IMG/VR virus record: IMGVR_UViG_3300021963_005926
Span: 1-25,036 of that record
Origin: a virus
Length of the DNA: 25,036 nucleotides
Direction: 5' to 3' (one strand)
Of the stretch, positions 9 through 13,479 are shown in pieces. A program made the translations under genes and the position numbers. Each line of letters begins with the position of its first letter. Position 1 is the first letter of the stretch. The notes below the pieces were generated by a model. It did not search any database. It had not been told where the DNA came from and worked only from the letters and a program-made list of their open reading frames with translations.

Positions 9-1514
9 ATGAAGACGTATAAAGATGGCGCGGAAGAAATCAAACAGAAACTGGATGAAGTAAGTCCCACTTTCTGTTTGGCGAAATGGAATATGGTGAG
101 TATGCATCTTACTAATGGTAAGACGCATAGTTGCTACCATCCGCCAACACATGACATTCCTCTAGAGGGATTATCTGAGAATCCAGGATTACTTCACAAT
201 ACTCCGCAGAAAATCGAAGAACGTGCTATGATGCGCAGAGGCGAGCGACCAAAAGGTTGTTCGTACTGTTGGCGTATTGAAGATGCAGGTCATACTAGCG
301 ATCGACACTATCGTAGCAGCGAATGGTGGAACTCTCCAGACTTCGAGAAAATTGCCTTTAATACAGAAATGGATACTACAATCACTCCTGCATATGTTGA
401 GGTAAATTTCAATCAGGCATGTAACTTCAAATGTATCTACTGCAGTCCGCACTTGAGCACAACGTGGCAAGAAGAAGCGGAAAAATATGGTGCATATATT
501 CTAAAAGATGCAGCACATAATCATCTCGGCGCATTGACTGAGTATGGATTGATGCCAAAGAAAGTATCACAGAAAGAAAATCCTTACCTCGAGGCATTCT
601 GGAAATGGTGGCCAGTTCTTTATAAAGAACTGAAGGTTTTTCGCATGACTGGTGGAGAACCTCTTATGGACAATAATACATTTAAAGTTCTAGATTATGT
701 TTATGCAAATCCTAATGCAGATTTACTATTGAGTGTGACTAGTAATCTTTGTCCACCAAAGCAAGAATTGTTTGAAAAGTTTGTTTCTTGTGTAAAAAAA
801 CTAGAAGAAATCCAGATCTGGAAAGATCCGAATAAGTTTAATATTAACAGTGGTAACAATTCTTATGTTAGTCCTGCAATTAAACACTTCTCTCTATTTG
901 TAAGTTGCGATAGCGTAGGAGAACAGGCAGAATATATTAGAACAGGAATGGATTTTAAACTTCTTGATAAAAATATCCGTACATTTCTTCGAGAAACCCA
1001 TGGAACAAATATTACTGTTATTAATACATTTAATATTTTAAGTGTCTCCAAGTTAAAAGAATTTTTACAGTGGATTTTTGATCTACGAGAAGAATTCAGT
1101 TATGACAATCAGCAAGAATTGGTAGTTGATGTTCCAGGGCATCCACCGTTTATTCATCAACGCAAAGAACGAATTACGTTTGATATTCCGATCCTCCATA
1201 CGCCATCTTGGTTGAGTATTAAAAATGCTGATTCCGATATGATTGCAATTATGGAGGAATGCGTTGAATTTATGCGTAATAATGTGCCAGAGAATTTTTC
1301 GCAAAGTTTTCGTGGATTCAGACCGCATGAAGTTGACAAGGTTCAGCGCGATCTAGATATTATGAGGCAAGGCAAAGACGAAAGTGAATTGATTATAGAT
1401 ATGATTAGATTCGCACAATATGTTGACGAACTTGATCGTCGGAGGGGCACAAATTTCGTGGATACATTCCCTGAAATGAAGTCATTTTATGAGAGATGTA
1501 AATGTTTGAGTTAG
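9..1514 (+). CDS. Radical SAM protein 1, N-terminal twitch-like cluster domain
   Basis: A 501-residue radical SAM enzyme. The SAM-binding [4Fe-4S] motif CNFKCIYC lies mid-protein (C138, C142, C145) and is followed by a GGEP motif near residue 215, typical of the SAM-binding barrel. Upstream, C23, C42, C84 and C87 (contexts FCLAKW, SCYHP, CSYCW) form a four-cysteine set that I read as an auxiliary iron-sulfur cluster placed N-terminally, as in the twitch-domain radical SAM proteins found in marine phages. Substrate and reaction are unknown. It is the first of six overlapping same-strand genes and a clear paralogue of the third (shared LHNT and CxYCWxxED stretches). It overlaps the next gene by 13 bases, so translation is probably coupled. 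Only eight bases precede the ATG, so its promoter and any earlier operon genes are outside the window. Confidence 0.88.
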   Translation: MKTYKDGAEEIKQKLDEVSPTFCLAKWNMVSMHLTNGKTHSCYHPPTHDIPLEGLSENPGLLHNTPQKIEERAMMRRGERPKGCSYCWRIEDAGHTSDRHYRSSEWWNSPDFEKIAFNTEMDTTITPAYVEVNFNQACNFKCIYCSPHLSTTWQEEAEKYGAYILKDAAHNHLGALTEYGLMPKKVSQKENPYLEAFWKWWPVLYKELKVFRMTGGEPLMDNNTFKVLDYVYANPNADLLLSVTSNLCPPKQELFEKFVSCVKKLEEIQIWKDPNKFNINSGNNSYVSPAIKHFSLFVSCDSVGEQAEYIRTGMDFKLLDKNIRTFLRETHGTNITVINTFNILSVSKLKEFLQWIFDLREEFSYDNQQELVVDVPGHPPFIHQRKERITFDIPILHTPSWLSIKNADSDMIAIMEECVEFMRNNVPENFSQSFRGFRPHEVDKVQRDLDIMRQGKDESELIIDMIRFAQYVDELDRRRGTNFVDTFPEMKSFYERCKCLS

Positions 1515-2656
1515 ATAAAATCCGTCATATTCATTTTGAATTGACTAATAAATGCAATGCTGCTTGTCCATGTTGCGCAAGGCAACATTTCGGTAAGCAA
1601 AATCCATGGTTGGTTCCTCGTGAATTATATCTGGACGATATTAAACGTATTATGCATGATAGTCGTTTGTTGGAGCAAAGCAATATTTTGTATTGCGGAA
1701 ATTATGGCGATCCTTGTATCTCGCGGGATATTATCGAAATTGTTAAATGGTTTAAAGAACAAAAATTTATTCCAGGTGTGACGAGGCAGCAAGTAATCAA
1801 TACAAATGGAGGAATGAAAACTCCAAAGTTTTGGGCAGAACTTGGTGAACAGTTACATAAGAAAGATGAGTGCGGCCGTGTAACATTTAGTATTGACGGA
1901 TTAGAAGATACAAATCACTTTTATCGTCGTCAAGTAAAATGGGATAAACTCTGGGCAAACTTAAATGCATTTCTTGATGCAGGTGGTAGTGCTTGGTGGG
2001 AATTTTTAGTATTCGGGCACAATAAACATCAGGTAGAAGAAGCAAGAGAAATTGCGACTTCTTTAGGAATGACATTTGTTGCAAAAAGACCATTTGGGTT
2101 TGATTCGAGTGGAGGGCAATTAGGATCAAAACCAACAATTCCTGTATATGATATTCATGGTAGATATGAATTTAGTTTGACATCAGAAGAATCTGAAACT
2201 CCTGGTCCAATTGTAGAAGAGCAGTTAAAAGGAAAAACATTCAGACAATATAAATTGGGCGAAATTTCCCATGAATGGAAACCTCTTCCGGCAGAAAAAA
2301 CATTTATGGAAAAAAGTTGCATTAAATGTAAAGCACTTGGTGACTCGGAGTGGTTTAGATCAGATAATTTTTATGTTACTTCATCAGGTCATGTTCTTCC
2401 ATGTTGTTTTATGCACGGACCATTAGAAACTAATCCATATAATTATGCGTCATACCAATTAAAAAATGCTGTTAACATGGATGAATTTGATTTATCTAAC
2501 AAATCACTAGATGAAATTGTTATCAGCGATGAGATGAATAAGACATTTTTTCAAAATATGCATAAACAATCTATTGACGAGGGATCTTTGTTGTTCTGCG
2601 GTGATCATTGTGGAGAATCTGCGCCAATGGATTTACTATATAAGAAAGAAGTATGA
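1502..2656 (+). CDS. Radical SAM protein 2, SPASM-like C-terminus
   Basis: A 384-residue radical SAM protein with the opposite architecture to its neighbour. The CxxxCxxC motif is at the N-terminus (C18, C22, C25; CNAACPCC), and a cysteine-rich C-terminal region holds CIKC, GHVLPCCF and CGDHCG, the pattern of a SPASM auxiliary-cluster domain. SPASM enzymes usually modify peptides or proteins, but some act on sugars or other small molecules, so the substrate cannot be assigned. FSIDG near the middle is a typical barrel strand motif. The ATG sits inside the end of gene 1 and the stop overlaps the start of gene 3 (ATGA), indicating a tightly coupled operon. It is closely related to gene 4 (shared GN[YF]GDP, DTNH.YRR and HQV[ED]EAR stretches). 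Confidence 0.87.
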   Translation: MFELDKIRHIHFELTNKCNAACPCCARQHFGKQNPWLVPRELYLDDIKRIMHDSRLLEQSNILYCGNYGDPCISRDIIEIVKWFKEQKFIPGVTRQQVINTNGGMKTPKFWAELGEQLHKKDECGRVTFSIDGLEDTNHFYRRQVKWDKLWANLNAFLDAGGSAWWEFLVFGHNKHQVEEAREIATSLGMTFVAKRPFGFDSSGGQLGSKPTIPVYDIHGRYEFSLTSEESETPGPIVEEQLKGKTFRQYKLGEISHEWKPLPAEKTFMEKSCIKCKALGDSEWFRSDNFYVTSSGHVLPCCFMHGPLETNPYNYASYQLKNAVNMDEFDLSNKSLDEIVISDEMNKTFFQNMHKQSIDEGSLLFCGDHCGESAPMDLLYKKEV

Positions 2657-4053
2657 TGAGCAGGGAATTAGATTATATTAGAGTTGTCAGAGATGACTTG
2701 AACGCAGTAGGTCACGGTTTCTGTTTACAGAAATGGCGTCATGAAACACTATACCTGCACATGGGAGACAATCATAGTTGTTATCACCCAAGACCTCAAA
2801 AAATTGGATTGGACGAGATTAAAACTAATCCATCTGCATTGCACAATACTAAATGGAAAAAACATCAGAGAAAAACAATGCTCGAGGGCGGAAGACCCGA
2901 TGAGTGTTATTACTGCTGGAATGTAGAAGACCTTCCTGGAGAACATTTCAGCGATCGTATGTTTCACAATTCCAGTCATTGGCTTAGAAATCCCAAAAAA
3001 GAAATTGAAACCATTAAAAATCTTGCATGGGATGCAGATGTAAATCCATATTTTCTTGAAGTAAGTTTTGGCGCAGGTTGCAACTTCAAATGTGGATACT
3101 GTTGTCCACAGGCATCATCTTTATGGGAAGATGAAATCAAACAGCACGGTAACTATGATATTAGTTACAATCAATACGGCATCGATTATCTACAAAATAC
3201 TAAAGTTTATCGAGATGATGAACCGAATCCGTATATTGATGCGTTTTGGGAATGGTGGCCAGAATTAAAGAAGGAACTACGAGTACTCCGTCTGACAGGA
3301 GGAGAGGCACTGATCAATTCAAATACAATGAAATTATTTAAGTTGATTGAAGAAGGCGACGACACTTCGCACTTAGAATTGAATTTAAATTCAAATCTAG
3401 GAGTTTCTAATGCTCGTGTTATTCGTTTTGCTAATTCTGTAAAGAGTATGTTAGAAAATAAAAAGATTCAAGCATTTAAATTATATACCAGTCTAGAGGC
3501 ATGGGGTGCTCGGGCAGAATATATGCGCAGAGGGTTGAAGCAGGATTTATGGTTGCAGAATGTGGAGACATATTTAGAAACTGTTCCTGATGTTCAAATT
3601 TCTGTTATGTGCACATATAATATTCTTTGCGTCGCTTCTTTCCGACCATTCCTCGAAAAGATTTTAGAATTACGGGATAAGTGGGGTAAAGATAGAATTG
3701 GGTTTGATACGCCATATCTTAAAGAACCACCACATTGGATGATTAATCTTCTTCCCCCTGAGTGGGTTTCCTATTTTGATTCTGATATGGAATTTATTCG
3801 TGATAATATTACTCCATATGGTTCTCGGGGAGGATTCAACGAACACGAATGGGAAAAGATGAAACGTGTTCGTAACTACTTTGTAGAAGGCGGTCCAATG
3901 ATCACAGAAGATTTGATTCTACGTGGAAGAAAAGACTTTTATAAGTTCTTTTCTGAATATGATAGGCGTTCTCCTGGTCTTAATCTTTTGGAAACCTTTC
4001 CGGAATACAAAGATTTTTACTATATGTGCAAGGAACTAAACGATGCAGGTTGA
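2653..4053 (+). CDS. Radical SAM protein 3, N-terminal twitch-like cluster domain
   Basis: A 466-residue paralogue of protein 1. The radical SAM motif CNFKCGYC is at C143, C147 and C150, followed by LTGGEAL (a variant of the GGEP motif). The N-terminal cysteine set is C24, C43, C85 and C88 (FCLQKW, SCYHP, CYYCW), with the same spacing as protein 1. The start overlaps the previous stop as ATGA; a second in-frame ATG directly follows at 2656, and either could be used. The resemblance of genes 1 to 3 and 2 to 4 shows that a two-gene unit was duplicated. The function is a radical-based modification of unknown target. Confidence 0.87.
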   Translation: MMSRELDYIRVVRDDLNAVGHGFCLQKWRHETLYLHMGDNHSCYHPRPQKIGLDEIKTNPSALHNTKWKKHQRKTMLEGGRPDECYYCWNVEDLPGEHFSDRMFHNSSHWLRNPKKEIETIKNLAWDADVNPYFLEVSFGAGCNFKCGYCCPQASSLWEDEIKQHGNYDISYNQYGIDYLQNTKVYRDDEPNPYIDAFWEWWPELKKELRVLRLTGGEALINSNTMKLFKLIEEGDDTSHLELNLNSNLGVSNARVIRFANSVKSMLENKKIQAFKLYTSLEAWGARAEYMRRGLKQDLWLQNVETYLETVPDVQISVMCTYNILCVASFRPFLEKILELRDKWGKDRIGFDTPYLKEPPHWMINLLPPEWVSYFDSDMEFIRDNITPYGSRGGFNEHEWEKMKRVRNYFVEGGPMITEDLILRGRKDFYKFFSEYDRRSPGLNLLETFPEYKDFYYMCKELNDAG

Positions 4054-5296
4054 ACCATTATATAATTCATGGCGCGATATTACTGCCATGCACATAGAAC
4101 TCACAAACAGATGCAATGCTGCATGTTCTATGTGCCCGAGATATATTGACAATGGAGCAAAAATAAATCCCAATCTTACTTTGACTGAGGTAACATTAGA
4201 ACATTTTAAAGAATGGTTCCCTCCTGATTTTGTAAAGCAATTGCGAAGAGTTTATGCTTGTGGTAATTTCGGGGATCCTATTGCTGCTAAAGATACGCTT
4301 GAAATATTTAAATACATGCGAGAATGTAATGATCGACTTGCATTAGTCTTGCACACCAATGGCAGTGCAAGATCTGCGAGTTGGTGGCAGGAATTAGGGT
4401 CTATCATGCAGGGTAAAAATCATGCAGATGATAGTGTTGTATTTTCTGTTGATGGTCTGTGGGATACAAATCATCTTTACAGAAGAAACACCAACTTTGA
4501 TAAAATTTATGAGAATATGAAGGCATATACTGGTGCTGGTGGTAGAGCAAAATGGGATTTTATTGCCTTTGACTACAACGAACACCAAGTAGATGAGGCT
4601 CGTCAACTTGCCCAAGATATGGGATTTGCTTATTTTAATGTAAAACGCACTACAAGATGGGAAGGATCTGATAGTGATGGCAGGGGATATTATAAGGTAA
4701 AAAATCCAGATGGATCTTCATATTTTATTCGCCAACCATTAAATCCAGATTTACAGCATGATAACGAAACAGCGTTTAAAAAGATACTCCCTCCGCAATG
4801 GATTTCAAACGAAGAGTTTTCTCGATTGATGCCAGAAGGCACTGAGGAATACTATTCAATGTATGATAGTATTACCAGAGAAAATATGAAGATCAAGCAT
4901 AATAGTATGGGCATTACATGCCGAGCAAAACTTGGACCATATCAATCGAATAATGAAATTTTCTTGTCAGCAACAGGCCATGTATTTCCGTGTTGTTTTC
5001 TTGGCGGTGAACCGTGGAGATACGGAACAGACACCTGGAATCCAAATGATACGTCATTGAAAATGATTGAGTTGAATGGCGGTATGGATTCAATAGACTT
5101 ACACCATAATACACTAGAAGAAATTGTCAACAGTCCATATATTCAGCGGTATCTTCCTCTAAGTTTTGAGCGTGGTAGTAATATGAGAAGTTACCAATGC
5201 AGTTCTTGCTGCGGGAGCGAATATAATAAACTTGATCAAGGAGAACTTGGTATGAATAACCGTTCTGCTGCTAAAGCATCTGCGCAAAATGTCTGA
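4043..5296 (+). CDS. Radical SAM protein 4, SPASM-like C-terminus
   Basis: A 417-residue paralogue of protein 2. The radical SAM motif CNAACSMC is at C24, C28 and C31; FSVDG marks the barrel. The C-terminal region carries a cysteine in GITCRAK, then GHVFPCCF, then CSSCC, consistent with a SPASM domain binding one or two extra iron-sulfur clusters. It overlaps gene 3 by 11 bases and gene 5 by 8 bases. It is the second SPASM member of the duplicated twitch + SPASM pair. Divergence from protein 2 is considerable outside the motifs, so the two copies may act on different substrates or different positions of one substrate (inference). Confidence 0.87.
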   Translation: MQVEPLYNSWRDITAMHIELTNRCNAACSMCPRYIDNGAKINPNLTLTEVTLEHFKEWFPPDFVKQLRRVYACGNFGDPIAAKDTLEIFKYMRECNDRLALVLHTNGSARSASWWQELGSIMQGKNHADDSVVFSVDGLWDTNHLYRRNTNFDKIYENMKAYTGAGGRAKWDFIAFDYNEHQVDEARQLAQDMGFAYFNVKRTTRWEGSDSDGRGYYKVKNPDGSSYFIRQPLNPDLQHDNETAFKKILPPQWISNEEFSRLMPEGTEEYYSMYDSITRENMKIKHNSMGITCRAKLGPYQSNNEIFLSATGHVFPCCFLGGEPWRYGTDTWNPNDTSLKMIELNGGMDSIDLHHNTLEEIVNSPYIQRYLPLSFERGSNMRSYQCSSCCGSEYNKLDQGELGMNNRSAAKASAQNV

Positions 5297-6491
5297 TACC
5301 ATCTGCGTATATCCTTGGATGTTACTTAGCGTTGGCGCTAGTGGGACATTACGACCATGTTGTAATGCCACAAATGAGATAATTTGGGAAGATGAACACG
5401 AACCGAGTCGTATTACTGACGATAAACCATCTGAGGATATTTTAAACACTAAAACGCATCGCGAATTGCGCGAACAGATGCTTGCTGGTATTAAACCTTC
5501 TGCATGCAAGAGATGTTGGACAATGGAAGCGGAAGGCGCAGAGAGTTTTCGTAATGCGGCAAATTCTAGATGGCAAGGTGAATACACTAGAATAATTCAG
5601 AAAAAATCCACCTTACCCTCGGGAGTCAGAAGAATTGAACTTGACCTTGGAACAAAATGTAATCTAAAGTGCAGAATGTGTGGTCCATATAGCAGTTCTC
5701 TCATTCAGAAAGAAATGCTGTCTAATGACTCCCCAGAAGTATTAGAGTATTATGGTTTCTCGGACACAAACTTCCCATCTGATTGGGTAGAAGTTAAAGA
5801 CATACGAGAACTTCTTTCTGTGCATGCACATACGATAGAAGAAATGTATTTAATTGGCGGAGAACCTCTGATTATTCCTGCCCACACAGAATTGTTAGAG
5901 TGGTTAGTCGAATCTGGGCACTCAAAGCACATAAAAATCGTTTATAATACGAACGGTATTACTATTGGTAACAAATTTATTGAGTTATGGAAACAGTTTA
6001 GGCATGTTCATTTATCAGTAAGTATTGATGGTATCTATGAACAATATGAGTATATTAGATTTCCTGCCAAATGGGATACTATAGAAAATAATCTTAATAA
6101 AATTATTTCTATTCAAAATGTATCTGTTGGAATTAGTACTACAATTCAAAATTTAACATTATCAACAATGGCAAATTTTGTTCAATGGGCTGAAAATTTA
6201 AAAATTGATGTTAATTTTATTCCCGTTCATCATCCATCGTTTCTTTCTCCGCATATAATGCCCAAAGTATGGTATTTGAAATTTATTGAAGAAATCGAGA
6301 AGATAGAAGTTACACAAACAAATTTAAAATATTCTGTTCTGTCAATGCTTTCGCAATTAAAATCTAACGTAGAAAATTGTGATACTACAATAGATAAGCA
6401 AAAACTATTCATCAAAAGAATGGAAACACTAGACAAAATCCGTAAACAAAATTTGTTTGATGTTCATCCGTGGGCAAAAGACATTGTCTAA
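5289..6491 (+). CDS. Radical SAM protein 5, short N-terminal twitch-like type
   Basis: A 400-residue radical SAM protein. The catalytic motif CNLKCRMC is at C124, C128 and C131, preceded by the IELDLGTK strand and followed by YLIGGEPL. The N-terminal set C6, C24 (in RPCC), C73 and C76 (CKRCW) matches the spacing of proteins 1 and 3 but in a shorter form. SVSIDG marks a later barrel strand. The ATG lies inside the end of gene 4 (8-base overlap). It belongs to the same broad family as protein 6, with which it shares the RPCC/NPCC and CGP[YD][SN]SS contexts. Target unknown. Confidence 0.86.
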   Translation: MSDTICVYPWMLLSVGASGTLRPCCNATNEIIWEDEHEPSRITDDKPSEDILNTKTHRELREQMLAGIKPSACKRCWTMEAEGAESFRNAANSRWQGEYTRIIQKKSTLPSGVRRIELDLGTKCNLKCRMCGPYSSSLIQKEMLSNDSPEVLEYYGFSDTNFPSDWVEVKDIRELLSVHAHTIEEMYLIGGEPLIIPAHTELLEWLVESGHSKHIKIVYNTNGITIGNKFIELWKQFRHVHLSVSIDGIYEQYEYIRFPAKWDTIENNLNKIISIQNVSVGISTTIQNLTLSTMANFVQWAENLKIDVNFIPVHHPSFLSPHIMPKVWYLKFIEEIEKIEVTQTNLKYSVLSMLSQLKSNVENCDTTIDKQKLFIKRMETLDKIRKQNLFDVHPWAKDIV

Positions 6492-7617
6492 TCTGACATG
6501 TAAAGTTGCAAAGTATGGGATAGAATTAGATGCACAGGGAAATATTAATCCCTGCTGTTATGCAAAACCTCTTGTTTCATTAAATGATATGACTTTAGAT
6601 CAAGCATGGAATTCTAAAGAAAGATTGCAACTTCTATCAAATTTAGAAAATGGAATCCAAGATCCGCATTGTTTGAGTTGTTGGGACGAAGAGAAGGCAG
6701 GCAGACAAAGTAAGAGAATGCGAGAAAATGAAAGACTCGTAAATTATACTGGCGATGCAGAAAGTCCGTATTTGGTTGATATTAAACCATGGAATACTTG
6801 TAATCTTAGATGTAGAATTTGCGGACCTGATAATAGTAGTTCTTGGGTTAATGAATTTTCTATTGTAGAAAATAAGAAATACGATGGTTTTGATCAAAAA
6901 TATTATTTAGCAGAAAATAGCAATTTCTGGGATACGATGGAAAACTGGTTAGTACATGCAGAATATATTGACTTCTATGGAGGAGAACCACTTCTAATTA
7001 AAAAACCATGGAAGTTGTTGGAGAAAAATGCAGTAAGCGGTCGTAGTAAAGAACAAGAATTACAATTTAATACCAATACCACAATACCACTTTCAGAAAC
7101 TCAGTTACAAACTTTACTGCAGTTTAAGAAGATCAATATTGCATTAAGTATAGATGGTATAGAAGAACAGTTTGAATACTTAAGATATCCTGGAAAATGG
7201 GATACAACTCTGAAAAATATTGATGATTATATCGAATATGGAATTAAATACGAAAATATAAATGTCAGTTTTTGTTGCACTGTGAGTATTCACAATCTTT
7301 GGTATGTGGTAGAATTTGATCAATATATCAAAGGTCGGTATGGTAATGATACTAAAATCTGGTATAATATATTGTTTGGACCTGATTGTATGCGAATAAC
7401 AAATATTCCAGAGAATGTCAAACTGCTAGTAAAGAATAAAATAAATTCGTCATCATCAGATTTTCTTGTGAATAGTATAATTGACTTTATGGAAATGGAA
7501 CCGTATAAACAAGGAAGTCTTGAGATATTTAAACAAACAACATTAAAATATGATGATCATAGAAACCAAAATTTCACACAGACATTTCCTGAATGGTCAT
7601 CTATTTTGGGGATTTAA
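6460..7617 (+). CDS. Radical SAM protein 6, short N-terminal twitch-like type
   Basis: A roughly 385-residue radical SAM protein with CNLRCRIC at C114, C118 and C121 and YGGEPL downstream; LSIDG marks a later strand. The N-terminal auxiliary set is C14, C32 (NPCC), C71 and C74 (CLSCW). The start is uncertain. The first ATG (6460) has no Shine-Dalgarno sequence, and alignment with protein 5 suggests that a TTG at 6484 could be the true start, giving an 8-base overlap like that between genes 4 and 5. It is the last gene of the cassette; a late-promoter-like box sits on its stop codon. Substrate unknown. Confidence 0.85.
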   Translation: MFIRGQKTLSNLTCKVAKYGIELDAQGNINPCCYAKPLVSLNDMTLDQAWNSKERLQLLSNLENGIQDPHCLSCWDEEKAGRQSKRMRENERLVNYTGDAESPYLVDIKPWNTCNLRCRICGPDNSSSWVNEFSIVENKKYDGFDQKYYLAENSNFWDTMENWLVHAEYIDFYGGEPLLIKKPWKLLEKNAVSGRSKEQELQFNTNTTIPLSETQLQTLLQFKKINIALSIDGIEEQFEYLRYPGKWDTTLKNIDDYIEYGIKYENINVSFCCTVSIHNLWYVVEFDQYIKGRYGNDTKIWYNILFGPDCMRITNIPENVKLLVKNKINSSSSDFLVNSIIDFMEMEPYKQGSLEIFKQTTLKYDDHRNQNFTQTFPEWSSILGI

Positions 7618-7913: not shown

Positions 7914-8453
7914 ATGAATATTTTTTATCTTGACAGTAATGTTACCAAATGCGCAGAATACCATAACGACAAACATGTCGTTAAAATGATCCTCGAGTAT
8001 GCTCAGTTACTTTCGACTGCGCATCGTGTATTAGACGGTAAGGAATATGTCGATGCCTCCTCTGGAAGAAAAATCAAGCGGTGGCGACTTGAGGATACGG
8101 CATTTGAGGCAGAACTATACAAAGCAACGCACATCAATCATCCGAGTGCTGTTTGGGTTCGCCAGTCTAACAATAATTATAACTGGCTTGTATGTCTATT
8201 CCAATCCCTCTTGTTGGAATATACTCATCGATATGGTAAACACCATGCATGCGAGCGACTAGTTTACTGGTTGCGCAAACCACCTGCTAATATTCCAGTA
8301 GGGTATCTGACGCAACCAACTCCTGCTATGCCAGATGAATACAAAGTTCCCGATTCGGTTCAGTCCTACCGCAACTATTATATCGGTGCTAAAAAAAGTA
8401 TGGCAAACTGGAAAAAACGTCCCGTTCCAGACTGGTGGGAGGTCGCAACTTAA
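7914..8453 (+). CDS. Conserved phage protein of unknown function (179 aa)
   Basis: It starts MNIFYLDSNVTKCAEYHNDKHVVKMILE and has further striking blocks: AQLLSTAHRVLDG, INHPSAVWVRQS and a C-terminal SYRNYYIGAKK with WKKRPVPDWW. I recall this general pattern from uncharacterised proteins of marine T4-like phages, but I cannot name a family with certainty. It is rich in His, Trp and Tyr, with the HNDKH cluster near residues 17-21 as a possible metal or active site (inference). It has no signal peptide or membrane segment. The Shine-Dalgarno sequence is weak, and the start is set by the conserved-looking N-terminus. The stop codon overlaps a second late-promoter-like box. Confidence 0.8.
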   Translation: MNIFYLDSNVTKCAEYHNDKHVVKMILEYAQLLSTAHRVLDGKEYVDASSGRKIKRWRLEDTAFEAELYKATHINHPSAVWVRQSNNNYNWLVCLFQSLLLEYTHRYGKHHACERLVYWLRKPPANIPVGYLTQPTPAMPDEYKVPDSVQSYRNYYIGAKKSMANWKKRPVPDWWEVAT

Positions 8454-9671: not shown

Positions 9672-10346
9672 ATGATGTTTAAAACGATATATGAATATGA
9701 AGATTTCGCTCAATCGACCACGAACGAAGATGGTAGCAGAGTTTACGTAAATGCCTCTGGTGGTGCGTATCCTTCTGCTACCACTGTTCTGTCAGTTCTT
9801 TCTAAAGAAGGAATTGCTGCTTGGCGAAAGCGTGTTGGTGACGAGGAAGCAGATAAGATTTCCAAGCAAGCATCGACTCGTGGAACCAAACTTCACAACG
9901 TAACTGAAGCGTTCCTGAAGAACGAAGAACTCGATTTTCAGGCACAGAAGTTTAGTCTTCTGGATCTCGAACTTTTCAATAAGTTTATGCCGATCTTGAT
10001 GCCGATCGATAATATTCACTGCCAAGAACTTGCACTCTACAGTGACCATCTGCGAATGGCAGGTCGCGTAGACTGTATCGCTGAATATAACGGCGCTCTT
10101 GCAGTAATCGACTTCAAGACTTCTGGGAAACCAAAGAAAAAAGAACATATCAAATCTTACTTCATGCAGGCAACCGCATATGCGATTATGTATGAAGAAC
10201 GAACTGGTATTCCTGTTCCCAATATTGTGATTCTAGTTGCAGTAGAGGGAGATGAACCTCAGGTGTTCGTCGAGAAGCGAGATAACTGGGCAAAAGAATT
10301 GCTGAGAACTCGTGATTATTTTGAAAATGGATATTATTTGACTTGA
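9672..10346 (+). CDS. PD-(D/E)XK exonuclease-like protein
   Basis: A 224-residue protein of the PD-(D/E)XK nuclease superfamily (RecB/Cas4-like exonuclease group). The core is visible as GRVDCIAEYNGALAVIDFKTSG: D134 and D147-F-K149 supply the metal-binding and catalytic residues, and QATAYA downstream is the conserved glutamine motif. RGTKLHNVTEAF near residue 75 is the usual upstream helix. Similar phage proteins process DNA ends in replication or recombination. Two ATGs are adjacent (9672, 9675); there is no Shine-Dalgarno sequence and the promoter ends only 6 bases before, so leaderless translation is possible. The tmRNA promoter starts within its last codons. Confidence 0.85.
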   Translation: MMFKTIYEYEDFAQSTTNEDGSRVYVNASGGAYPSATTVLSVLSKEGIAAWRKRVGDEEADKISKQASTRGTKLHNVTEAFLKNEELDFQAQKFSLLDLELFNKFMPILMPIDNIHCQELALYSDHLRMAGRVDCIAEYNGALAVIDFKTSGKPKKKEHIKSYFMQATAYAIMYEERTGIPVPNIVILVAVEGDEPQVFVEKRDNWAKELLRTRDYFENGYYLT

Positions 10347-10373
10347 CTTCTAAAGAAATCTATAGTATAAATA
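10343..10373 (+). promoter_or_regulatory. tmRNA promoter: sigma70 -35 with TATAAATA box
   Basis: TTGACT (10343-10348), a 17-base spacer, then TATAAA within TATAAATA (10366-10373), which is also an exact T4 late promoter box. It could therefore serve host-type RNA polymerase early and the phage late polymerase later. Predicted start is near 10378-10380, a few dozen bases before the T-arm of the tmRNA acceptor piece. Confidence 0.72.
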
Positions 10374-10375
10374 AT

Positions 10376-10441
10376 ATATCAGTTGTTGATACAAACTGAA
10401 TGCTTCGTAGGACAGGGGTGCAACTCCCCTCGCCTCCACCA
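10376..10441 (+). ncRNA. tmRNA acceptor piece (T-arm and CCA end)
   Basis: Contains the 3' strand of helix 2, the T-arm, the 3' acceptor strand, discriminator A (10438) and an encoded CCA (10439-10441). The T-loop is TGCAACT rather than the usual TTCAACT. The 5' end is inferred from the promoter position. Confidence 0.85.
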
Positions 10442-10592
10442 TAGATAAAGCAACAGGGACTATACAGCGTACGTAATATAGGAACTGGCTGACCGCATGG
10501 CTTGCCCCAAGGGAGATAATGTTTGGGGGCGTTGTAACTGGATAGGAGTCATGACCTTGGACGTTACTTCAAGTTGGTGCTTTATCTATGAT
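10442..10592 (+). other. tmRNA intervening segment, removed on maturation
   Basis: Links the CCA end to the 5' end of the coding piece. ATAGATAAAGCA (10441-10452) is perfectly complementary to TGCTTTATCTAT (10578-10589). This 12-bp helix extends the acceptor stem almost continuously and would hold the two pieces together before processing. The inner part holds nothing else I recognise. Confidence 0.85.
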
Positions 10593-10806
10593 GGGGGCGT
10601 ACTTAGGATTCGACTGCGAGTTGAAGGCGAGAGTAGACTGATTGCTTGGGTAAAGTGCCCACAAAACGTAAATGCAGCAAACGATAATGTTGCCTTTGAG
10701 ATGCGCCTAGCAGCGTGATCTCCTTGGGTTTTGGCGGTTTTCCTAGAAACAGAATAAACCGTCGACCGTTCTATTACAGCGGTAGAAGGAGTCCTCAAAA
10801 AGACTC
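10593..10806 (+). ncRNA. tmRNA coding piece
   Basis: Begins with the 5' acceptor strand GGGGGCG and the D-arm-like GGATTCGAC, followed by helix 2, a region for the first pseudoknot, the tag frame and the helix 5 hairpin. The 3' end is not defined by the sequence; the last clear hairpin is GAGTC/GACTC at 10789-10806. Confidence 0.8.
10677..10718 (+). other. tmRNA tag reading frame, ANDNVAFEMRLAA-stop
   Basis: Resume codon GCA at 10677, stop TGA at 10716-10718. ANDN at the start and LAA at the end match the proteolysis tags of alphaproteobacterial tmRNAs; the terminal LAA is the part recognised by ClpXP in studied bacteria. A preceding GCA at 10674-10676 is in frame and could add one alanine. 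Confidence 0.88.
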
Positions 10807-10901
10807 AAACCCCTAAATATTAATGCCCCTTGAAAAAGGTGCCCAGTGTAGGGAGTCACTGGTTAATCCTCTCTCCAGTTCAACAATCCAAGGAATAGTA
10901 A
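10807..10901 (+). other. Structured spacer between tmRNA and hydrolase gene
   Basis: No gene is visible. It contains small hairpins (CCTT/AAGG at about 10827-10839, and CCAGTG/CACTGG at about 10841-10860) and ends with an AAGGA ribosome binding site. No T-run terminator is seen, so the tmRNA precursor may be cut from a longer transcript that continues into the hydrolase gene. Confidence 0.5.
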
Positions 10902-11501
10902 ATGCCTTCCTTTAACAAGAAGACATTGAAAATTCTTTCTATTATACTAGCACTGACACTGGGTTATAATTTCGCTTTAACTTTTGCTAAAGAAAGAATT
11001 GAAGATACTGCACTAGATTTCTCTGCAGCGTCTTACAATAAACTCGAAACTGTGAATAAAAATATTGAAGATGTAAAAAAAGAAGTTAGAAAAGAAGAAA
11101 AGAAAAAATACATTTCCGCAAATCGTAGAGAAATTAAATGTCTCGCGGATAACATTTATTACGAAGCAGGTCATGAACCGACCGCTGGTAAGATCGCAGT
11201 CGCAGGTGTGACTGTTAACAGAGTAAAAAGTCCTAAATTTCCAAAATCAGTTTGTTCAGTTGTCTATCAGCGAACAGCAAGAACATGTCAATTTTCTTGG
11301 ACGTGTATGAGGAAGTATTCTCCTAATCCTGCTGCTTATGCTGAAGCAAAAAAAATTGCTGAAAAAGTATTGACTTCGGAGATAAAAACGACTAAAGTGG
11401 TATCAAGAGACGTGCTTTTCTATCATGCGGATTATGTTAATCCAGGATGGAGATTAGAACGTGTCACTAAAATTGGTAGACATATTTTTTATGCAGGATA
11501 A
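10902..11501 (+). CDS. SleB/CwlJ-type cell wall hydrolase, membrane-anchored
   Basis: A 199-residue protein. Residues 8-29 (LKILSIILALTLGYNFALTFA) form a membrane segment or signal anchor, then comes a charged coiled-coil stretch to about residue 70. The C-terminal domain matches the Hydrolase_2 (SleB/CwlJ) family: LADNIYYEAGHEP with the conserved glutamate E88, VAGVTVNRV, FPKSVCSVVYQ and CQFSW. Members are peptidoglycan hydrolases. With an N-terminal anchor this could be a lysis enzyme held at the inner membrane like SAR endolysins, although the anchor is fairly hydrophobic (inference). AAGGA precedes the ATG. It lies between the tmRNA and gp33. Confidence 0.88.
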   Translation: MPSFNKKTLKILSIILALTLGYNFALTFAKERIEDTALDFSAASYNKLETVNKNIEDVKKEVRKEEKKKYISANRREIKCLADNIYYEAGHEPTAGKIAVAGVTVNRVKSPKFPKSVCSVVYQRTARTCQFSWTCMRKYSPNPAAYAEAKKIAEKVLTSEIKTTKVVSRDVLFYHADYVNPGWRLERVTKIGRHIFYAG

Positions 11502-11509
11502 ATTTAATT

Positions 11510-11776
11510 ATGGTACTGGAAGAAATTCCTACAACTGACGAATTCTTGATTACCAAGCAATTCAAATCGGCGGCAGAGTTCTCGATTCATATTGAAAAAA
11601 TCGCGAGAGAATCAAGTATACCATGTATGGATGTTTTGATTGACTATTGCGAAAAACGTCAAATTGAAGTAGACTCTGTCGCCTCTTTGATCAGTTCCTC
11701 ATTGAAGGAAAAGATTCGTGTTGAGGCACAAAATCTTAATATGTTAAAATGTGATACAGGGAGGTTGCCTATCTAA
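11510..11776 (+). CDS. 33: gp33-like late transcription coactivator
   Basis: 88 residues, somewhat shorter than T4 gp33 (112). In T4, gp33 bridges RNA polymerase to the sliding clamp so that late promoters (TATAAATA) are activated. The assignment rests on position immediately before gp59 and gp32, as in T4, on size, and on a C-terminal core (EKIRVEAQNLNMLK) resembling marine gp33 proteins. It is helical and acidic. The stop overlaps the next start (TAATG). It fits the several TATAAATA-like boxes in the window. Sequence alone gives moderate support. Confidence 0.72.
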   Translation: MVLEEIPTTDEFLITKQFKSAAEFSIHIEKIARESSIPCMDVLIDYCEKRQIEVDSVASLISSSLKEKIRVEAQNLNMLKCDTGRLPI

Positions 11777-12360
11777 TGGACCCGTATCAGGTTTATCGCC
11801 TATACTTGGCACTAAGATTGCACTTTACCAATGAAAATTATGACATTACTAAAACCAAAGGTGGGGTTCGCCCCTCGAAACAAGCATTTCTGAAGAGAAA
11901 AGATTTGTTTGCTATTCGTAAACTGGCAGAGACAAAAAGTCGACAGGAAATTATAGATTTTCTTGTATCTAATTTTGTATCTGGCAACCGCTGGGGTGGA
12001 GTGTTTGACTCTGAATCCGTTGAGGTATATACTCAATGGACGTATAAGATGCAGAAACTCACCTATCAATTCACACAAGACTTATATGCCATGCACGCTG
12101 ACGGCGATCCGTTGCAATCAGTAGATGGTCAACACCCAAGCATCTTTAAGTTGTATATGGGTGGAAAAATTTCTCTAGAATCTATTGCTATTTTGGATAA
12201 AATCATTAAATTTACTTCTAGAGATTATGGTTCTCTATCAGATGACTTTATGTGGAAAGACTTTGTTCATTTGGTAAAGAAATATCGTCCGTTTGTAAAA
12301 ATAGACAAAGAAAAATTTACTCACCTATATCAAAAGGAGATCGGAGTGGTGGTAAAATAA
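11776..12360 (+). CDS. 59: gp59-like loader of the replicative helicase
   Basis: 194 residues, close to T4 gp59 (217). The N-terminal DPYQVYRLYLALRLHFT followed by YDITK and a basic RPSKQAFLKRKD block is characteristic of gp59, which loads the gp41 helicase onto gp32-coated DNA at forks. It is a basic, helical protein. GGAGG about 11 bases upstream supports the ATG, which shares one base with the gp33 stop. Location next to gp32 matches T4 gene order and its partner interaction. Confidence 0.9.
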   Translation: MDPYQVYRLYLALRLHFTNENYDITKTKGGVRPSKQAFLKRKDLFAIRKLAETKSRQEIIDFLVSNFVSGNRWGGVFDSESVEVYTQWTYKMQKLTYQFTQDLYAMHADGDPLQSVDGQHPSIFKLYMGGKISLESIAILDKIIKFTSRDYGSLSDDFMWKDFVHLVKKYRPFVKIDKEKFTHLYQKEIGVVVK

Positions 12361-12361
12361 T

Positions 12362-12526
12362 ATGAGTAAGTCTCGTCGTCGGGATTATTATGACGATAAT
12401 TTAAAAATTCGTCATAATGAAAAAGATGTTAACAAGTCGCGTAAGCATCGGAATAACATGTATAAATACTCCAGTAGTCATGATGATGATGACTACGATG
12501 ATTATGATACAGCGCAAAAACACTAA
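12362..12526 (+). CDS. Small charged protein (54 aa) before gp32
   Basis: A short ORF starting MSKSRRRDYYDDNLK, with a basic middle and an Asp/Tyr-rich end (SSSHDDDDYDDYDTAQKH). It is not a family I recognise and is probably disordered. It fills the gap between gp59 and gp32, with the ATG one base after the gp59 stop. Its second half overlaps a TATAAATA box and a hairpin that may control gp32, so some of its codon sequence may serve the RNA rather than the peptide. Confidence 0.55.
   Translation: MSKSRRRDYYDDNLKIRHNEKDVNKSRKHRNNMYKYSSSHDDDDYDDYDTAQKH
12461..12468 (+). promoter_or_regulatory. Late promoter box upstream of gp32
   Basis: An exact TATAAATA on the coding strand, about 88 bases before the gp32 start. 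Initiation about 7 bases downstream would place a perfect hairpin (12474-12496) at the extreme 5' end of the gp32 message. Confidence 0.5.
12474..12496 (+). promoter_or_regulatory. Hairpin in the gp32 leader, possible autoregulatory operator
   Basis: GTAGTCAT and ATGACTAC form a perfect 8-bp stem with a 7-base loop (GATGATG), 59 bases before the gp32 ATG. T4 gp32 represses its own translation by nucleating on a structured element upstream of its start followed by unstructured A/U-rich RNA; the A-rich region 12510-12550 here would suit that. Function inferred. Confidence 0.45.
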
Positions 12527-12555
12527 ACATACAACGCAATATAAGGACAATACAT

Positions 12556-13479
12556 ATGTCAAGTAATTTTTCAGACCTCCGCAAGAATCGCGGAAATTTC
12601 GACTCACTCATGAAGGCAGTTGAGTCAATCGCAAACCCATCAAACGAAAAGAAGGGCGACGACGATCGCTTCTGGAAACCGACTGTCGATAAGGCAGGTA
12701 ACGGTCAAGCAGTGCTTCGTTTCCTCCCTGCTCCTGCAGGTGAAGAACTTCCATGGGTTCGCGTATTCGATCACGGTTTCCAGGGTCCAACTGGTAAGTG
12801 GTATATCGAAAACTCTCTGACGACAATCAACAAGAACGACCCTGTCGGCGAACTTAATTCCGAACTCTGGAATTCAGGTATTGAAGCGAACAAGGAAATT
12901 GCTCGTAAGCAGAAGCGTCGTCTCTCGTATATCTCCAATGTTCTTGTCGTTCGCGATCCCGCGAATCCCGAGAATGAAGGTAAGGTTTTCCTCTACAAGT
13001 ATGGTAAGAAGATCTTTGACAAGATCAAGGATGTGATGCAACCTACCTTCGAAGATGAAGAACCAATCAATCCGTTCGACTTCTGGCAGGGTGCCAACTT
13101 TAAGTTGCGTATTCGTCAGGTTGAAGGTTATCGTAACTACGATAAGTCGGAATTCGATTCGGTTTCTGTTTTGTCTGATAACGACGATGAGATTGAATCT
13201 CTGTGGAAGAAGCAGCATTCGCTCGCATCGTTCCTCGATCCTGCTAACTTCAAGTCGTATGACGAACTGAAGGCAAAGTTGAATGCAGTTCTTTCAGGCG
13301 GTGCTCGTGTCGCTACTGCTGAGAAGGTTTCGCCTCTTGATGCAGAAGACGAACTGTTCGTTGAAACAAAGATGAAGTCACCAGTTGCTGCTCGTAAGAC
13401 TGAGGATGATGTTCCTTGGGATACTGGCGAAAGTGAAGATGAAACTATGAGTTATTTCTCAAGTCTCGCTGACGACTAA
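12556..13479 (+). CDS. 32: gp32-like single-stranded DNA-binding protein
   Basis: 307 residues, like T4 gp32 (301). It shows the N-terminal basic region, the OB-fold core with QAVLRFLPAP, HGFQGPTGKWYIE, VLVVRDPANPENEGKVFLYKYGKKIFDKI, and an acidic C-terminal tail (DVPWDTGESEDE to SLADD) used for protein partners. It coats ssDNA in replication, recombination and repair. The cysteines that bind zinc in T4 gp32 are absent; the loop reads TTINKNDPVGELNSELW. Codons are richer in C and G at third positions than in neighbouring genes (AAG, TTC, AAC, CGT), as expected for high expression. AAGGA about 10 bases upstream sets the start. Confidence 0.96.
   Translation: MSSNFSDLRKNRGNFDSLMKAVESIANPSNEKKGDDDRFWKPTVDKAGNGQAVLRFLPAPAGEELPWVRVFDHGFQGPTGKWYIENSLTTINKNDPVGELNSELWNSGIEANKEIARKQKRRLSYISNVLVVRDPANPENEGKVFLYKYGKKIFDKIKDVMQPTFEDEEPINPFDFWQGANFKLRIRQVEGYRNYDKSEFDSVSVLSDNDDEIESLWKKQHSLASFLDPANFKSYDELKAKLNAVLSGGARVATAEKVSPLDAEDELFVETKMKSPVAARKTEDDVPWDTGESEDETMSYFSSLADD

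Follow-up and report, generated by a model that had tools for sequence, protein, structure and literature searches.

A circularly permuted tmRNA gene in a T4-like phage and the apparent exchange of its spacer among related phages

The DNA analysed here, referred to as the window, is a stretch of 25,036 nucleotides that represents a 25-kb virus record (G000), itself a fragment. Positions 10378–10718 of the window are a complete circularly permuted tmRNA gene. We put at about 87% the probability that this gene yields a functional permuted tmRNA of a T4-like, Melnitz-related phage, acting in host-dependent ribosome rescue and carrying a spacer that is removed from the RNA and replaceable in the gene. 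The gene, its structure, its conservation and the turnover of its spacer are apparent from the sequences compared. The content of the spacer behaves as an exchangeable cassette, which appears to have been exchanged or lost repeatedly between phages with nearly identical tmRNA, independently of their kinship. The parts of the gene and its neighbours are as follows.

9672–10346, plus strand: PD-(D/E)XK exonuclease, the upstream neighbour
10343–10373, plus strand: promoter (consensus match), with TTGACT at 10343–10348, a 17-nt spacer and TATAAATA at 10366–10373
10378–10441, plus strand: acceptor piece, with one strand of the inter-piece helix, the T arm, the 3′ acceptor strand CGCCTCC, A73 and CCA
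10442–10592, plus strand: spacer (intervening sequence, IVS) of 151 nt, presumably cut out by processing
10593–10718, plus strand: coding piece as far as the stop codon of the tag, with the 5′ acceptor strand GGGGGCG, the D-like region GGATTCGAC and the resume region
10674–10718, plus strand: tag reading frame, AANDNVAFEMRLAA and its stop codon (ARAGORN)
10733–10763, plus strand: conserved hairpin downstream of the tag, GGCGGTTT / AAACCGTC, in which pairs covary; the coding piece extends at least this far
10902–11501, plus strand: cell-wall hydrolase or endolysin-like gene, the downstream neighbour
11510–13479, plus strand: syntenic block of gp33 (late-transcription coactivator), gp59 (helicase loader) and gp32 (ssDNA-binding)

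A first-pass annotation of the window had proposed a phage-encoded, circularly permuted two-piece tmRNA at this site, and the proposal is now backed by the agreement of two programs, by covarying pairs and by conservation of the gene across many phages. ARAGORN makes a single tmRNA call in the window, at 10349–10809 on the plus strand with the tag given above, and labels it 'Permuted'. When the whole window was compared with Rfam, RF04321 (tmRNA_permuted) matched 10378–10718 with 75.6 bits (gathering threshold 47, E = 4.3e-13). Both describe a gene in which the 3′ tRNA-like part stands before the 5′ part, with the intervening sequence between them. The annotation had suggested ARAGORN and the older alphaproteobacterial model as checks; the former agrees, as does RF04321, but the alphaproteobacterial RF01849 remains below its gathering threshold in the window (44.5 against 50 bits). 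RF01849 is nevertheless the best of the older clan models there, with a match that runs to 10763, and several relatives score above its threshold, with up to 122.9 bits. The acceptor piece, with CGCCTCC-A-CCA at its end, stops at 10441 and GGGGGCG opens the coding piece at 10593, as the annotation had it, and the two strands form the seven-pair acceptor stem it had described (G-C, G-C, G-U, G-C, G-C, C-G and G-C), including G3-U70. The Rfam score, the covariation and the conservation rule out a chance match or a decayed relic. A nucleotide search of named phages with the window tmRNA gave no match.

Conservation of the RNA was assessed among distinct genes of related loci. A G-U at pair 3 is found in 50 of 50 distinct genes, the window included, and ACCA is likewise encoded in all 50. 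No aligned relative has an unpaired position in the acceptor or T stem, and two-sided changes occur at acceptor pairs 4–6 and at two T-stem pairs. Beyond the acceptor stem, the two pieces can pair in an inter-piece helix of 10379–10384 with 10636–10641 (alignment columns 2–7 with 119–124), in which most pairs are invariant, one position shows three pair types and no non-standard pair occurs. The resume consensus is present in the window, followed by the tag frame, which ends hydrophobic. The tags of the relatives (ANDNVAFALAA, ANDNVAFAGYALAA, ANDNNVAFALAA and others) keep the frame and all end in LAA, and the differences among them are mainly of whole codons.

The relatives comprise 70 loci found through an exonuclease search of IMG/VR and 101 stretches found through a tag-DNA search, two sets that partly overlap. 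A permuted tmRNA was present in 142 of 170 viral loci (Melnitz and other reference regions included), a proportion that is not a natural frequency, as the tag query selects for tmRNA. ARAGORN called 136 of these genes and our own pattern the other 6, and together they represent 52 distinct genes; all loci were found via exonuclease or tag matches, and distant and tmRNA-less relatives are under-sampled. Most loci share the gene order phoH, exonuclease, tmRNA, cell-wall hydrolase, gp33, gp59, gp32. In the window, too, PhoH lies near the tmRNA, and the immediate neighbours are those the annotation had named, a PD-(D/E)XK exonuclease upstream and a cell-wall hydrolase downstream. The best named-phage match of the window's gp32 is Melnitz, with 57.5% identity. 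The annotation had also called a permuted tmRNA unusual in a T4-like genome. This does not hold, as Melnitz-type phages carry one in the same gene order and 53 two-piece tmRNA structures have been counted in phages, 50 of them in marine or aquatic samples (PMC9004378). As a tmRNA, the window gene is thus a further member of the already known phage permuted tmRNAs, which are known in related marine phages.

Several other features of these regions were noted. Extra variable genes lie between exonuclease and tmRNA in ten loci (L014, L020, L024, L044, L052, L196, L203, L221, L236 and L272), and some of the genes inserted upstream of the tmRNA resemble, by eye, iron-sulfur carriers or 2OG-type oxygenases. 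The first part of the window (9–7617) holds six tandem radical SAM-type ORFs, of which five match PF04055 (one of these just under the curated cut-off), several carry SPASM domains and the first is without a Pfam match; a pyrimidine-dimer glycosylase-like gene (PF03013) follows at 7914–8453. On the 3′ side of the window tmRNA, GTGTAGGGAGTCACT (10848–10862) recurs as GTGTGGGGAGTCACT 3′ of the tmRNA of L047 (7333–7347); on the minus strand, the window copy of GTGTAGGGAGTCACT forms part of a terminator-like hairpin.

The predicted promoter lies directly upstream of the acceptor piece and has hexamers of the sigma-70 type, with the −10 element overlapping a T4-type late box, TATAAATA. Among the 49 relatives with full upstream sequence, the −35/−10 pair is retained in 47 and the exact TATAAATA in 40. 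A mechanical promoter scan pairs a neighbouring TTGACT at 10338 with TATAGT instead, and its 2 sites against 1.2 in shuffles are no clear excess. Because a T4 late promoter does not require a conserved −35 element, our reading is that the gene is expressed early by a host-type polymerase, and possibly late as well.

The spacer of the window closes with a perfect helix of 11 pairs (10442–10452 with 10578–10588) that adjoins the acceptor stem; TGAT then leads up to the coding piece. Eleven pairs were reached in 11 of 20,000 mononucleotide shuffles. A closing helix of at least 8 pairs occurs in 46 of 49 spacers (those of at least 29 nt) compared with 1% of mononucleotide shuffles. Changes between homologous spacers are compensatory, with five double changes in the helix between L011 and L047, two between L014 and L022 and one between L003 and L198, and no broken pair in any of these comparisons. 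This helix of about 11 pairs beside the acceptor stem appears to be the only general constraint detectable in the spacer. An independently structured spacer RNA was considered and rejected: folding of the inner parts does not exceed that of dinucleotide shuffles (mean z −0.36). The window spacer is also not an element found elsewhere, as no second copy exists in its own record or in 11 related records.

The content of the spacer, as judged by blastn (global identity being too lenient for unequal lengths), falls into 29 families among the 52 distinct genes, 26 of at least 25 nt and three of 3–5 nt. The latter are near-empty genes (L203, L250 and L264) with 3–5 nt between CCA and GGGGG, and count as separate families only since they match nothing. 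Similar spacers occur on dissimilar genes: L030 and L238 have 99% of the spacer in common and 71% of the mature RNA, and L031 and L269 have 96% and 74%, respectively. Conversely, a single mature allele carries five kinds of spacer (L194, L198, L206, L211, L251 and L274). The family of the window spacer consists of the window and L196 alone, with 97% identity and a different tag in L196. Assembly error is unlikely to be a general cause of this diversity, because single spacers recur in independent contigs and the closing helices are intact.

One spacer family differs in that it seems to encode a protein. In the 134-nt family (L004, L005, L024, L206, L236, L241, L246 and L272), an ORF of 57–58 codons with the pattern CxC...CCGTC extends from the spacer into the coding piece. 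The changes at codon positions 1, 2 and 3 number 2, 1 and 11 between L004 and L206, and 2, 2 and 8 between L004 and L024. Because the differences fall mostly at third codon positions, they support a small protein under codon-level constraint. We take CxC...CCGTC to be the pattern of Bfd ferredoxins, but the protein has no significant Pfam match and the identification was dropped. The ORF of the window at 10497–10718, which runs through the spacer in the tag frame, shows no coding sign, and the L196 spacer has a two-base deletion.

The turnover was compared with that of the non-coding spacer between gp59 and gp32, which is about 200 nt long and lies about 1.7 kb downstream. The gp59–gp32 spacer was homologous in all pairs compared, at every level of four-fold-site identity, compared with 5 of 13 pairs for the tmRNA spacer at identities of at least 0.95, 1 of 13 at 0.90–0.95 and a few per cent below that; it is one control spacer and not a genome-wide background, and sequence upstream of gp32 may be regulatory and unusually conserved. 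Bacterial genes provide a second comparison. Among pairs with a mature identity of at least 98.5%, spacers were homologous in 95% for 39 bacterial permuted tmRNAs, largely of one genus, Bradyrhizobium, and in 31% for the phages. The gp59–gp32 control weighs more, because the same mature identity may correspond to different times in phages and bacteria.

There are two candidate explanations for the turnover. The spacer could be neutral filler, with a high rate of replacement through the usual recombination of phages and no selection for diversity, and we give this explanation about an even chance of being right. It agrees with the unstructured inner sequence and with the existence of near-empty alleles, as well as with the places where spacer sequence is found: for two spacer cores, all 10 IMG/VR sites of each lie inside tmRNA genes, and the 21-nt core of the window spacer is found in IMG/VR only in L196. 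However, the homology of the gp59–gp32 spacer at all divergences means that a general high rate does not explain the turnover of the tmRNA spacer, the source of 26 unrelated spacers is left unexplained, and in one family, which encodes a protein, most changes are at third positions.

It is also possible, if rather doubtful, that the spacer is under diversifying selection, either as something recognised by a factor of the host or of a rival phage or as a means to deliver variable small RNAs or proteins. Phage kinship says almost nothing about which kind of spacer a gene carries, different tmRNA classes can bear the same spacer, one mature allele has five kinds, and one family has a coding ORF. 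Against this, the spacers of 20 loci matched no Rfam family except the tmRNA models, the riboswitch of Melnitz lies downstream of the gene, and among the extra ORFs between exonuclease and tmRNA no homing endonuclease is evident by eye. We would only tentatively describe the spacer as a cassette slot, a site inside a conserved RNA gene that can hold foreign sequence because it is cut out during RNA processing, and whose content is exchanged under diversifying selection. Selective grounds for such a slot may include evasion of a factor by which the spacer is recognised, the release of small RNAs, or cargo such as the CxC...CCGTC protein.

Whichever explanation of the spacer applies, a functional tmRNA remains the preferred reading of the gene, and its likely course can be outlined. 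We infer the steps of transcription, processing, charging and tagging, as well as an advantage for the phage and an exchange of spacers through recombination. From the promoter, whose −10 element would double as a late box, one precursor RNA would be made. The halves of the acceptor stem would pair across the spacer, assisted by the closing helix, which lengthens the stem. Excision of the spacer would then fall to host RNase P, cutting before G10593, and to a host 3′ tRNA-processing nuclease, cutting after A10441, as has been suggested for spacer removal in bacterial permuted tmRNA (PMC3985003). The products would be an acceptor RNA of about 64 nt and a coding RNA of about 180–210 nt, joined by the acceptor stem and the inter-piece helix. 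Host alanyl-tRNA synthetase (AlaRS) would charge the RNA through G3-U70, host SmpB and EF-Tu would carry it to ribosomes that have stalled on broken mRNA, and the LAA-ended tag would mark the nascent chain for host proteases. During infection, ribosomes could thereby be kept available while mRNAs are degraded. The spacer would have no role in the mature RNA. Since it would be absent from that RNA and only the closing helix seems constrained, what lies at the site could be replaced often, and in one family it includes a small protein gene. Recombination between co-infecting phages would be the simplest route for such replacement.

Rescue of stalled ribosomes with host SmpB is the most likely function. 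No SmpB was found in 10 related records and no SspB in 9, in searches whose positive controls worked and whose targets are mostly fragments, and host factors are therefore probably used in place of phage ones. The host itself was sought through the tag: in bacterial genomes, tags starting with ANDNVA belong mostly to Bradyrhizobium, other Alphaproteobacteria and Firmicutes, and none equals the window tag.

A different role, which we regard as improbable, is that of a competitor: by sequestering SmpB or AlaRS, the RNA would shut down trans-translation in the host, a role that has been proposed for the tRNA-like-only tmRNA of mycobacteriophage DS6A. Strong inhibition of tmRNA by a DS6A-like tRNA-like-only molecule, perhaps through titration of SmpB, is described in PMC4131195, and the lack of SmpB in the related records would suit such a competitor. 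However, a pure competitor needs no tag, and here the full tag frame, the stop codon and the LAA end are kept across distinct genes, with length differences that stay in frame. It is very improbable that the gene is a non-functional host relic of integration or imprecise excision (an att-site remnant), even though ssrA is a common integration site and prophages carry fragments of it (PMC9004378), as many viral contigs carry the gene complete, with a promoter, covarying pairs and conserved gene order, and in some pairs the mature region has diverged far less than the genes beside it (99.5% identity between the window and L007, against 62–74% in the flanking genes).

A tmRNA borne by a phage raises the question whether it provides rescue beyond the host supply or redirects tagging. 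The related phages also offer a natural series of many near-identical tmRNA genes, near-empty ones included, whose main difference is the spacer presumed to be removed. Such a series could reveal what part the spacer and closing helix play when the precursor is processed, and whether an RNA-processing site can serve as a carrier of exchangeable sequence. Selection for spacer diversity would imply that the spacer is read by some component of the host or of rival phages.

Among known systems, Melnitz, a phage of Methylophilales (MZ577097) with a two-piece permuted ssrA as gene 86 (PMC9004378), is similar in many respects. It is T4-like and carries its permuted tmRNA at the same site, between the PD-(D/E)XK nuclease and gp33, with the same promoter type and the same kind of closing helix in the spacer. 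The order in the Melnitz record is PhoH, PD-(D/E)XK nuclease, two small ORFs, tmRNA, gp33, gp59, three small or accessory genes, and gp32. Melnitz differs in its tag, ANDNYVPVDYALAA, in a spacer unrelated to that of the window, and in a hydrolase gene located elsewhere. A glutamine riboswitch (RF01739) lies directly 3′ of the Melnitz tmRNA (L072, 6082–6130), as published; such a downstream riboswitch is reported to be common in, and not defining for, Melnitz-type tmRNA, and Rfam finds none in the window. The roles proposed for Melnitz ssrA, ribosome upkeep or breakdown of host proteins (PMC9004378), resemble those suggested in the first-pass annotation, which were rescue on degraded mRNA and a redirected host degradation machinery.

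The tmRNA genes of mycobacteriophages Bxz1 and Wildcat and of Bacillus phage G are of the standard form and are not known to be permuted. They share with the window gene that they are phage-encoded and have a tag (PMC4131195). The intervening sequences of permuted tmRNAs are described as absent from mature tmRNA and may contain a tRNA gene or a repetitive element (PMC11915505). As far as the accessible part of that source goes, exchange between near-identical genes, independence of kinship and near-empty alleles are not described there. As far as the literature that could be searched goes, we found such occasional inserts and no description of spacer exchange in permuted tmRNA genes. The Caulobacter-type RNA (RF01849) resembles the window gene in its permuted form, two-piece tRNA-like domain, resume region and tag. 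The window gene differs in being phage-encoded and in a spacer turnover that seems much faster than in the bacterial set used. The Caulobacter-type RNA is also the model for the course we consider likeliest, from one precursor through spacer removal to a two-piece RNA that would be alanylated, enter the ribosome in an SmpB-dependent manner and tag the nascent chain.
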